Below, in pieces: positions 17,814 through 44,189 of a stretch of 64,000 bases of DNA. Within the stretch, counting starts at the first letter, position 1, and each line of letters opens with the position of its first letter. The stretch is from Neocallimastix lanati (nom. inval.). Lineage: Eukaryota > Neocallimastigomycota > Neocallimastigomycetes > Neocallimastigales > Neocallimastigaceae. The DNA lies in NCBI GenBank assembly GCA_016946835.1, contig JACVTC010000018.1, positions 1,273,501-1,337,500 on the forward strand, written 5' to 3'. A program made the position numbers and the translations under genes. The notes beneath the pieces were generated by a model. That model made no database searches. It was not told the DNA's origin and saw nothing but the letters and a program-made list of their open reading frames with translations.

Positions 17814-17817
17814 ACAT

Positions 17818-18439
17818 TGATAAAGGATTAAATTATAAATCAATAAAACATTATATTATTGAAAATGAATAAAATTATTAAACAAAATAAAATAAATCAT
17901 ATTACCATCTAAACAATAACTATAAATTAATTAATAATAATAAAAGTAAATATTTTAAATAAATAATATAAATAAATTAAATTGTTAAAATAATTAAAAT
18001 TATTAAATATTAAATATTTTATTTTAAAGAACAATGTAATTTTGATAATAAAAATTAAAAATGTTATATTATAAAAATCTTAATGTAAACTTTAGTTTAA
18101 AAATAATGATAATTGTTTAAAAATAATAATTAGATAGTTTTATTTTAAAATCTTTAATTTAAAAGAAAAATATATAAACTTGTAAAAATAATCTCAAATT
18201 TAAAGAAACAGAATTAATAAAAAAAAAAAAAAAATAATTAATTTCTCAAAAATTATTAATTTAAAATTTTATTATCTTTTAACTTAAAAGAAATTTGCTT
18301 TTTTTTTTTTTATAAGTTTAAGATATTTTGTGTTTTAATATAATTTTAATTTATTGATTATAAAACATTTAATTTTGTTATACTTATTATCACTTTTAGA
18401 AATTAAATTCTAAATTAAGATAATAAGCAAACTATAACA
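17818..18439 (+). repeat. 5' LTR of element E (622 bp)
   Basis: From TGATAAAGGATT to ACTATAACA. The 3' copy at 24117-24738 has the same length and differs at only a few positions (for example CTTTAG versus CTTAAG near 18088). Promoter-like AAAGAAAAATATATAAACTT lies near 18163-18182. Confidence 0.93.
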
Positions 18440-18441
18440 AC

Positions 18442-18461
18442 TGGTGGAGAATCCTCTAAGG
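18442..18461 (+). other. Primer-binding site of element E
   Basis: TGGTGGAGAATCCTCTAAGG starts two bases after the LTR. It is complementary to a tRNA 3' end terminating in TCTCCACCA. The first nine bases equal those of the sites in elements B and C. Confidence 0.75.
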
Positions 18462-19226
18462 CCTGTGATAAGTATAATATAAAAATAAATTTTCAAATAG
18501 TGGTAAGATATTTGAAAATTGAAATTCAAATAAAATTTTTTTTTTTTGTTACAGTCACAGTTAATTTAATAATTTATAATAAAATTTAAGGAAATAATAT
18601 ATAAATAATATATTGAAAATATGTTGTTAAATATATTAAATTAATAAACAATAAATTATAAGTTAATTGATAATATATCTAATAGTATAAGATATTAAAA
18701 AGAAAATATTGTTACACAAATTAAATTTAAAATAAAGATACGAAAATATTAAAAAAATATATATACAATATTTAATAAATATAAACTAATATGTTCAAGT
18801 ACATAAATATAAATATAAATTAAATATATAATTAATAAAGTATAATTAATATAATAAATTTAACATATAATCAAAATAAAGTATAGTAAAATATAATAGT
18901 ATATTTATATATATATTTATAAAAAAAAATAGTAATACATACTAATATATAAAATAAATAAATAAATTTAAAAGAAATTATTAATAAAATAATATAGATA
19001 AAAAAAAAAAAAAAAAAAAATAAAAATAAAAATAAAAATAAAAATAAAGATAAAAATAAAAATAAAAATAAAAATAAAAATAAAAAAATAAAATAAAATA
19101 AAATAAAATAAAATAAAATTAAATAATATAAAATAAAATAAATAAAATAAAATATTGGATATTAAATTTTAATTAATTCATTTAATAATAATAAAAGAAC
19201 CACTTAAATAATTATATAGTAATAAG
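18462..19226 (+). other. 5' leader of element E
   Basis: About 765 nt before gag, very AT-rich, with a poly-A run (about 19003-19020) and long (AAAAAT)n and (AAAAT)n tracts at 19021-19155. No open frame and none of the G+C-richer leader blocks seen in B and C. Confidence 0.6.
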
Positions 19227-20180
19227 ATGGATCAAACAAAAGCTTTAACATTTAATAGAATTCCTATTTTAGGAAGTTCAAAAAGTTCATTTGACGAATG
19301 GAAATTTGCGTTTGATCATTGGTGCAAAACATTTGGCATTAAAGAAGAATCCGAAAAAGTGGATTACCTCTTTGCTATTACAGATAAAACTGCTAGAACA
19401 ATAGTTTATAATTCATTAAATAAAAAAACTCCGGATAGTTATGAAACTATCTTAACCAATCTGAGTAAACACTTTAAAAAGTCATCCACTAAAAATTCGA
19501 GAATATTGGAGCTATCATCTATTACAATCAAGAAGGACGAGAGTATATCTGACTTCGACTTGAGATTTTCTGATTTACTAAATCAAGTCAGTAAAACTGT
19601 TAATATATCTGAAGTTATAATTATCTCATATTACATAAACGCTTTTAGAAACTGGCCAAGAATTTACGAAAGTTTAATGGAAGAAGAGCCAATAACATTA
19701 GAAGAAGCAATGAAGATAACCTCTAAGAAAGAAAAAATAATGAAATTAATTAAAGAAAATAAAGAAAAAGGATCGAATAATAAAGTAAAATCTTCTAATA
19801 GTGATAGGAAACTTGACACACATTATAATTATTCAAATAAAAATTTTCAAAATCAAAATGTAAATAATAATGAAAATAAACACAAATATAATAATCATTA
19901 TAACTATTACAATCAAAATAAGAATACTAATTATAATAGACAACATGTAAATGATTATTACAACAATTCAAGGTTAACAAATAAAACAAATGATAATAAC
20001 AATAAAAATAAACTAAACAACAACGAAATGGAAGAATTAACAAAGAAATTATCAGAATTAACATTAAATTTCTGTGTAAACTATTTACAAGGACATAATA
20101 AGGAAGAATGCAGTGACGATGATAATAAATACAACAACGAAAATAATAATATTGACAATGATGATGAATCTTTAAACTAA
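19227..20180 (+). CDS. gag: Gag of element E
   Basis: 317-residue structural protein. Residues 1-170 form a capsid-like helical region (IPILGSSKSSFDEWKFAF, then LTNLSKHFKKSSTKNSRILE and DFDLRFSDLLNQV). Residues 180-280 are Asn-rich. The nucleocapsid end CVNYLQGHNKEEC is a damaged zinc knuckle: the second Cys is Tyr and the spacing is one residue short, unlike the intact C-X2-C-X4-H-X4-C knuckles of families A/C and B. An acidic tail ends ESLN and TAA immediately after the slippery TTTAAAC. The start is the first ATG after the leader. Confidence 0.88.
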   Translation: MDQTKALTFNRIPILGSSKSSFDEWKFAFDHWCKTFGIKEESEKVDYLFAITDKTARTIVYNSLNKKTPDSYETILTNLSKHFKKSSTKNSRILELSSITIKKDESISDFDLRFSDLLNQVSKTVNISEVIIISYYINAFRNWPRIYESLMEEEPITLEEAMKITSKKEKIMKLIKENKEKGSNNKVKSSNSDRKLDTHYNYSNKNFQNQNVNNNENKHKYNNHYNYYNQNKNTNYNRQHVNDYYNNSRLTNKTNDNNNKNKLNNNEMEELTKKLSELTLNFCVNYLQGHNKEECSDDDNKYNNENNNIDNDDESLN

Positions 20181-20220
20181 ATATTGGGAGTACGCAATCT
20201 TCCAATTTAAACAAAATTGC
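20171..20220 (+). promoter_or_regulatory. -1 frameshift signal of element E (TTTAAAC plus pseudoknot)
   Basis: T TTA AAC at 20171-20177 is in gag register and the gag stop TAA follows directly. After a 6-nt spacer: stem 1 TTGGGAG (20184-20190) with CTTCCAA (20199-20205), containing one G-U pair. Loop GCAAT (20194-20198) pairs with ATTGC (20216-20220). The second stem differs in sequence from that of A/C and B yet stays complementary. The -1 frame reads FKLNIGSTQ, matching FKLLNGSRS of element C. Confidence 0.88.
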
Positions 20221-43024: not shown

Positions 43025-43195
43025 TAATCTGATAGTATACCCTGTCTGACGTGCAGCTTGCCTCTTCACGGCGTCATGCCACGCGGGTACCACGGCTACT
43101 GTATTCAATATAAAATACAGCAGTCCAGAGCCTACTAGCCCAATTACTATGTAGGTTAAACTTAGCCCGGAAATCTATATCCAAGGCTTTGTTAA
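43025..43195 (-). other. Conserved structured leader block, element B
   Basis: G+C-rich block conserved with 52060-52215 of element C (shared GTCTGACGTGCAGCTT, TGTCATGCCACGCG-like and GCCTACTAGCCCAATTACTA parts). The hairpin CTGTATT/AATACAG (43099-43120) is CTATATT/AATATAG in C, a compensated G-C to A-T change. Likely a functional RNA element (packaging, dimerisation or translation); role unknown. Confidence 0.65.
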
Positions 43196-43240
43196 ATAAT
43201 TTAATTAATAAATAATATTAAATTTTATTTTTCTAATATT

Positions 43241-43257
43241 CCCCGATATCTCCACCA
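43241..43257 (-). other. Primer-binding site of element B
   Basis: Minus strand TGGTGGAGATATCGGGG, seven bases inside the LTR end, identical to the site of element C; complementary to a tRNA 3' end in TCTCCACCA. Confidence 0.75.
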
Positions 43258-43264
43258 TAAATTA

Positions 43265-44102
43265 TGTTATGGTTCGGGTTTTATTAGAATTTTATTTAAT
43301 TATTTATTTTTAATATTTTTCTGTCTACATTTTAATTCTTGAAAAGCTTCACTTATTTATACTTTTTGAAAAAAAATAAATATGTAAAGCCTTTCTACAT
43401 TTTGTTATCATATTTAAAAAAAATAATCTACTATTACTAATTACTTCAATTTTATATTAATTTAAATTAATTAATTCATAAATATTTTTATTTTAATAAA
43501 TTTTGTTTATATAATTTTATATTATTTTTCATATACTAAAACTAAATTATTTAATATATACGAAAAGAAACAAACAAAATTTAAAAAGATTTTACAGAAA
43601 AATAAAGTTATTTTAATCAAGAATGTTAATATAATATTCTTATATTTTATATAAAATAAATTTAAAAACTATAATATATTTAATATTTATTATTAATCAA
43701 TTAAGATTTGATTTTATTTGTGGGGAATAAAAATATAAAATAATCAATTTAAAAATAAAATAAAATACTAAAAAGAATACAAGTTTAATATTGATACAAT
43801 ATAATAATAATATAATAATATATTTGAAAATAAAAATAAAATATTAATATTGATAATAAACACTTTAATAAAATAATAAAATTTAAGGTTAAATTATAGA
43901 TATTGATATTAATAATAAAAATATAAAATTATTGATAATATTTTAGAAACTTTTAATAAAAATATAAAAAAAATAAATATATTTAGAAAATATTTTAGTA
44001 TAGAAAATATAGTAAAGTAATATTAAGTAAAGAATAATATAATGGATTCTAAAGTAAGTTGAAATTCTAATTAATAATCCATTATATGTTCGTTCTTTAC
44101 CA
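43265..44102 (-). repeat. 5' LTR of element B (838 bp)
   Basis: Identical by eye to 35079-35916. The 12-bp inverted repeat is at 44037-44048 and 44076-44087, near the outer end facing the tRNA gene. Confidence 0.95.
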
Positions 44103-44116
44103 CATACCAACAGGAT

Positions 44117-44189
44117 ATTCGAATAGTGTAGTGGTTATCACGTTTGCTTTACACGCAAAAGGTCTCCGGTTCGAACCCGGGTTCGGGTA
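44117..44189 (+). tRNA. tRNA-Val (anticodon UAC), copy 1
   Basis: A 73-nt cloverleaf: acceptor ATTCGAA with TTCGGGT (two T-G pairs) and discriminator A; D-arm GTGTAGTGGTTATCAC; anticodon arm TTTGC-TTTACAC-GCAAA with anticodon TAC, reading GUA valine; variable AGGTC; T-arm TCCGG-TTCGAAC-CCGGG. A box TAGTGTAGTGG and B box GGTTCGAACCC fit Pol III promoters. No intron. It is the anchor of the retrotransposon stack: element B ends at 44102 with its TSD at 44103-44106. It looks functional. Confidence 0.97.

Follow-up and report, generated by a model that had tools for sequence, protein, structure and literature searches.

Stacked long terminal repeat elements upstream of a tRNA-Val gene of Neocallimastix lanati: probable integration targeted to RNA polymerase III genes

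Clusters of long terminal repeats (LTRs) occur upstream of yeast tRNA genes. Targeting of genes transcribed by RNA polymerase III (Pol III) by LTR elements is described for ascomycete yeasts and dictyostelids, and it is interpreted as a way of inserting safely into gene-dense genomes (PMC5006619, PMC5911963). Ty3 integrates within 1-4 nt of where Pol III starts and does so in both orientations through Tfc1 (PMC5911963), while 13 of the 17 sequenced inserts of Tj1 lay at most 12 bp upstream of tRNA genes, the others being at 5S genes, in a fixed orientation that in 2015 was called unique to this element (PMC4600332). The gypsy-type DGLT-A is found ~15 bp upstream of tRNA genes (PMC5006619); Tca8 of Candida albicans and Tyl3, Ylt1 and Tyl6 of Yarrowia are also gypsy-type elements located upstream of tRNA genes, and Ty1, Ty2 and Ty4 target Pol III genes within a window of ~1 kb (PMC5911963). 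Here we analysed a stretch of 64,000 nucleotides (hereafter the window; 22% GC) from contig JACVTC010000018.1 of the anaerobic fungus Neocallimastix lanati, whose genome comprises 199 Mb in 762 contigs. In the window, a tRNA-Val(TAC) gene is preceded by a time-ordered stack of LTR elements, Ty3/gypsy where the class was shown, that very probably arose through integration directed at Pol III genes, the elements probably docking on the Pol III initiation complex. On the present data, the shared targeting system that had been predicted is one target shared by several families. A literature search, thin on subscription papers, found no report of Pol III-targeted LTR insertion in anaerobic fungi.

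Nested insertions at one tRNA-Val gene

Insertions were tested by nested removal through exact matches of their target site duplications (TSDs). An exact match was obtained for all nine insertions (Z, E, K, G, H, I, A, B and J; Table 1), and eight of them had entered 8-18 nt upstream of the same tRNA-Val gene, within one 11-nt stretch; the ninth, J, lies 9.9 kb from the tRNA, nested in the solo LTR I. The age order given by nesting is, oldest first, Z, E, K, G, H, I, A and B, with J entering I later, which agrees with the original prediction that newcomers enter next to the tRNA and older elements move outward. The seven TSDs claimed there were all present and each of the seven insertions stood, but the count fell short, since an eighth element, Z, had been missed; the CTACA kept in the residual text of that prediction is the end of Z, which lies outside E. 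Moreover, K had been set apart as an exception to the site, and it belongs to the tRNA site because its TSD falls at -18..-14 once G is removed. Beyond Z, a further LTR-like end (CGTATCA, to 17254) was seen.

The LTR pairs differ at 0 of 838 positions in B, as had been judged by eye, at 3 of 622 in E and at 3 of 518 in J, and these divergences agree with the nesting order. By this measure, all insertions on the tRNA side of E took place in the time that the LTRs of E needed to gain three differences, unless gene conversion kept the pair alike.

Position, spacing and precedent suggest how such a stack could arise. An integrase-cDNA complex would dock on the Pol III initiation complex, with TFIIIB, as for Ty3, as the likeliest partner, and would cut just upstream of the transcription start, so that the internal A and B boxes and the final nucleotides of the flank stay intact. 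Because the internal promoter dictates the target complex, each insertion would restore a usable target, and the slot beside the tRNA would always be free, so that older elements would be pushed outward and often collapse to solo LTRs. An internal promoter that keeps rebuilding the target would thus yield a stack without further assumptions.

LTR ends next to other Pol III genes

A tRNA-Val pattern search of the genome gave 42 sites, and 30 loci, two of them inside the window, were examined for LTR ends, an end being counted where a 24-mer with CA as its last two bases was present again in the examined sequence but continued differently. Such an end was present 8-22 nt upstream in 25 of the 30 loci, vs 0-6 loci in each of 11 other upstream bins (maxima 5 and 6, at 53-67 and 83-97) and 0-1 in each of nine downstream bins. 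Offsets at the tRNA-Val loci ranged from 11 to 16 nt, and many LTR end types occurred at tRNA sites. Family-end matches (at most 5 mismatches) were found at the site in 41 of 75 cases, vs 3-13 of 74 at other offsets. With a slightly looser criterion, 15/28 tRNA-Arg, 8/10 tRNA-Asn and 3/9 tRNA-Thr upstreams were positive, counts to be read as upper values because some fall by chance within an adjacent tRNA gene; the tRNA-Arg loci were the best-scoring tRNA matches and no random sample. This positional test was used in place of an all-against-all BLAST of tRNA flanks, which was too noisy in AT-rich sequence; from a permissive LTR BLAST, likewise dominated by AT-rich noise, the coordinates of Z and one stretch of sequence were kept. 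Insertion up to ~20 nt upstream of tRNA genes, the mark of Pol III-targeting elements of the Ty3 and Tj1 type, was therefore found both at this locus and genome-wide, in support of the integration just upstream of Pol III genes that had been predicted. On contig C555 (L033-L038 and others), 34 of 63 scored tRNA matches were located, mostly tRNA-Arg(TCT) across 230 kb, several of them with LTR ends just upstream.

There is certainly selection against gene disruption, and untargeted insertion followed by survival of the copies beside tRNA genes and loss of the others could also produce an orientation bias, a point raised by the authors of the Tj1 study (PMC4600332). This account is very unlikely here, since selection would not readily confine insertions to ~10 nt and leave neighbouring offsets and the downstream side empty, and the window holds elements away from tRNA genes at 1-17000 and 28000-34000 (J and copia-type elements), so that other sites are evidently tolerated. 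Still less probable is that integrases read a DNA sequence such as CAACATAC rather than the Pol III machinery. All eight TSDs at the window locus do lie inside the text TCAACATACCA; however, earlier elements contributed part of that text through their ends, and at the 25 tRNA-Val loci the five bases that follow the LTR end comprised 20 different five-mers with no common motif beyond AT-richness, the kept feature being the spacing to the tRNA.

Duplicated segments are also present in this genome. The two tRNA-Val copies of the window (44103-45749 and 54265-55911, tRNA and 3' flank) show 0/1647 differences, L039 and L050 are identical over 1400 nt downstream, and L053 and L054 are 98.9% identical over 372 nt, as would be expected had LTR and tRNA been copied jointly as one segment, with few insertion events needed. 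Closely related tRNA flanks, however, bear different elements (L053/L054, L062/L063 and L047/L062), the tRNA-Val offsets vary, and the window locus has nine matching TSDs, which makes joint copying the least probable of these accounts. Targeting to Pol III genes is therefore the reading that we retain.

The X family, to which the solo LTR A of the stack belongs, was followed separately. Its exact U3 end occurs 762 times in the genome, 321 of these at the internal 3' LTR junction, which leaves at most 441 outward ends. These were sampled in the order of their listing; of the first 24, 20 were examined over the 51 nt beyond the end (outside the 20 were C8:4784, known as L039 to abut tRNA-Val, the C3:694203/694221 pair and C18:26172). 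An A-box (TRGYNNAR, 0-2 bases, GG) started 17-30 nt on in 8 of the 20, vs a background of 0.23% among 20,000 random window stretches; two of the eight match tRNA-Thr loci and six are tRNA-like. Five further ends run, 4-8 bp on, into a repeat beginning there, namely the start of Z (L105) and the start of B (L107), both assigned by family, and repeats present at other loci (L109, L120 and L124). In addition, two X ends (C24:1082369 and C27:396039) lie 15 bp upstream of the probable start of a tRNA-derived short interspersed nuclear element (SINE), placed by coordinates only with a 50-nt offset hand-counted on L073. In this sample, A-boxes are thus far commoner beyond X-family ends than in random window stretches, in line with the genome-wide enrichment near Pol III genes that had been proposed as a check.

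The X-family copy at the left window edge lies upstream of a tRNA-Ser(TGA) gene (C90:1270321-1270403) on the expected strand, with 14 nt between the two. Assuming full length, its outer end was expected near C90:1270522, adjoining a Pol III gene, and the actual LTR end lies ~100 bp further. This tRNA-Ser gene heads another stack, formed by the X-family element, a G-family LTR and further LTR-like ends. At L111, L116, L117 and L121, a repeated tRNA-like unit (A-box TGGTTCAATGG) carries X-family insertions at slightly different offsets.

Among other Pol III genes, 5S gave nine matches, and one of five upstreams examined (L100) had an LTR-like end, 8 nt upstream, consisting of a 13-nt match to the reverse complement of the start of element C; LTR-like ends were absent upstream of L101, L102 and L104, which are copies of one unit, and of L103. 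U6 gave six matches, four of them above the cut-off. The B-box pattern had 461 exact matches, vs 10 for the reversed pattern, and most of the 30 loci examined (L069-L098) were copies of a tRNA-derived SINE-like repeat that starts GCCATGTTGG; they were left out of the tRNA census.

Several observations weigh against the targeting account. Five of the 30 tRNA-Val loci scored negative, the family-end matches have a non-zero background at other offsets, 7 of the 20 sampled X ends were followed by neither an A-box nor a repeat start, and only one of the 30 B-box loci (L088, by eye) had an LTR-like end. Moreover, no tRNA match was found at seven Z-containing loci (L002-L008), where the Z ends are in stacks or unexplained.

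Tandem tRNA copy, element classes and orientation

The full element X and the solo LTR C sit upstream of the second tRNA-Val copy, at the same site as the stack of the first. The LTRs of X are alike apart from 6 gap columns, and at its left end precisely the LTR terminus abuts sequence from downstream of the first tRNA copy, with no TSD match. This mismatch could have arisen by recombination between two X-family insertions, by a single integration event that joined two targets, or by a join introduced during assembly. It is unlikely, though well within consideration given the identity of the two copies and the missing TSD match, that two haplotypes were joined in one contig, since X joins at an exact LTR terminus on both sides, as expected from integration or LTR recombination. 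Such an artefact would touch the tandem copy only, leaving the stack at the first tRNA and the genome-wide pattern unaffected. LTR elements may be duplicating tRNA genes. A similar tRNA pair, L053 and L054, lies 15 kb apart on contig C355.

Table 1. Features annotated in the window; TSD positions are relative to the mature start of the first tRNA-Val (44117)
Feature	Coordinates	Strand	TSD	TSD position	Description
X-family copy	1..5065	-			Second X-family element, extends past window edge
G-family LTR	5066..5834	-			Stacked behind second X-family element
Z	17265..17816	+	TACCA	-12..-8	Solo LTR; strand from coding direction of its relative in L018
E	17818..24738	+	ACAT	-15..-12	Full-length, Ty3/gypsy-type; LTRs 17818-18439 and 24117-24738
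K	24741..25135	.	ACAAC	-18..-14	Solo LTR
G	25143..25891	.	ACAT	-15..-12	Solo LTR
H	25894..26862	.	TCAAC	-18..-14	Solo LTR, related to I
I	26868..34231	.	TCAAC	-18..-14	Solo LTR, split by J
J	27847..34182	-	TTATA		Full Ty3/gypsy element inside I, away from tRNA site
A	34238..35072	-	AACA	-16..-13	Solo LTR, X family; strand from coding strand of X
B	35079..44102	-	CATA	-14..-11	Full Ty3/gypsy element; identical LTRs 35079-35916 and 43265-44102
Retained flank	44103..44116	+			Between B (youngest insertion) and tRNA; starts with B TSD CATA
tRNA-Val(TAC)	44117..44189	+			Landing pad
X	45750..53793	-			Full Ty3/gypsy element; AACA on tRNA side (right) only
C	53798..54262	.			Solo LTR, 16 nt upstream of second tRNA; AACA both sides
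Second tRNA-Val(TAC)	54279..54351	+			Tandem copy

By Pfam, B, X, E and J are Ty3/gypsy elements, with the order RVT_1, RNase H, integrase zinc-binding and rve in one open reading frame (ORF) in B and X and across consecutive ORFs in E and J. No match to RVT_2, the Ty1/copia-type reverse transcriptase (RT), was found in these four elements, while copia ORFs elsewhere in the window have it. The lineage statements made here are pairwise identities only: B and X share 65% of amino acids and X and E 53% in the RT, whereas X and J share 38% in the RT and 27% in the integrase (IN), and the IN of Z is J-like. Ty3 is the best match of both the X and J RTs among solved structures; the RNase H-IN region of J matches Ty3 (1.2e-61), and the IN of X matches foamy-virus IN (4e-31) and Ty3 (1.1e-22). 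Among the best 120 of 208 matches, the best-scoring named relative of the X integrase came from Orpinomyces (P0049, 56%). J carries a Tf2-1-like SH3 domain and was also seen, by eye, away from a tRNA in L037. Thus the idea that unrelated families share the site holds insofar as two distinct lineages are present, but the families whose coding class was shown (X/A, B, E and Z) are all Ty3/gypsy, C, G, H/I and K standing outside this class assignment. An estimate of K as copia was dropped, having no coding support, and no share of copia in the targeting is claimed, as a tblastn of window ORFs found none abutting a tRNA in the examined loci, some of which do contain copia ORFs. In the window, no tRNA adjoins the copia-type (RVT_2) elements at 10904-13907 and 57065-59520, and a relative of the latter lies beside or inside a Z-type LTR in L006.

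One end only faced the tRNA in 9/9 family-end matches of X, 7/7 of G and 5/5 of H, and a few weak family-end matches may be exceptions. Orientation relative to the target gene is therefore predominantly one per family, of the Tj1 type, with X and B diverging from the tRNA and Z and E running with it. At G000:C3:694203-694234, two U3 ends of the X family lie 4 bp apart in facing orientation, and this pair may include one insertion in unusual orientation. We tentatively propose, as a possibility that falls short of a favoured conclusion, that each Pol III-targeting family is locked to one orientation, families being oppositely locked (X/B vs Z/E); that the docked integrase complex discriminates between LTR ends; that polarity switched between related gypsy families (X/B vs E); and that two distantly related gypsy lineages in a single early-diverging fungus, whose genome is non-compact, share Pol III targeting. 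If related families are indeed oppositely locked in one genome, what sets integration polarity becomes directly testable.

Comparison with known systems

Pol III targeting is a dominant pattern at the tRNA-Val genes of a 199 Mb genome and is common to many LTR end types, and tRNA genes would serve as landing pads that can be used repeatedly, the order of element activity being preserved in their stacks. Pol III-proximal insertion itself is known from Ty3 and Tj1; orientation is the less expected part of the finding.

Ty1, Ty2 and Ty4, of the Ty1/copia class, resemble the present case in targeting Pol III genes and differ in their ~1 kb window; unlike them, no copia element abutting a tRNA was seen in the loci examined here. 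Tca8, Tyl3, Ylt1 and Tyl6 share gypsy-type insertion upstream of tRNA genes, in a different host lineage. DGLT-A of Dictyostelium is likewise gypsy-type and inserts ~15 bp upstream of tRNA genes, but in either orientation (PMC5911963) and in a compact, 'gene-dense' host (PMC5006619). Ty3 of Saccharomyces cerevisiae is alike in being gypsy-type with Pol III-proximal insertion, yet it inserts in both orientations, whereas mainly one end faces the tRNA in each testable family here, where TSDs are of 4 or 5 bp and several families meet at one site. Finally, Tj1, a Ty3/gypsy element of Schizosaccharomyces japonicus, shares both the position upstream of tRNA genes and a fixed orientation, but it is described as always forward at Pol III genes, whereas here X and B diverge from the tRNA and Z and E run with it.

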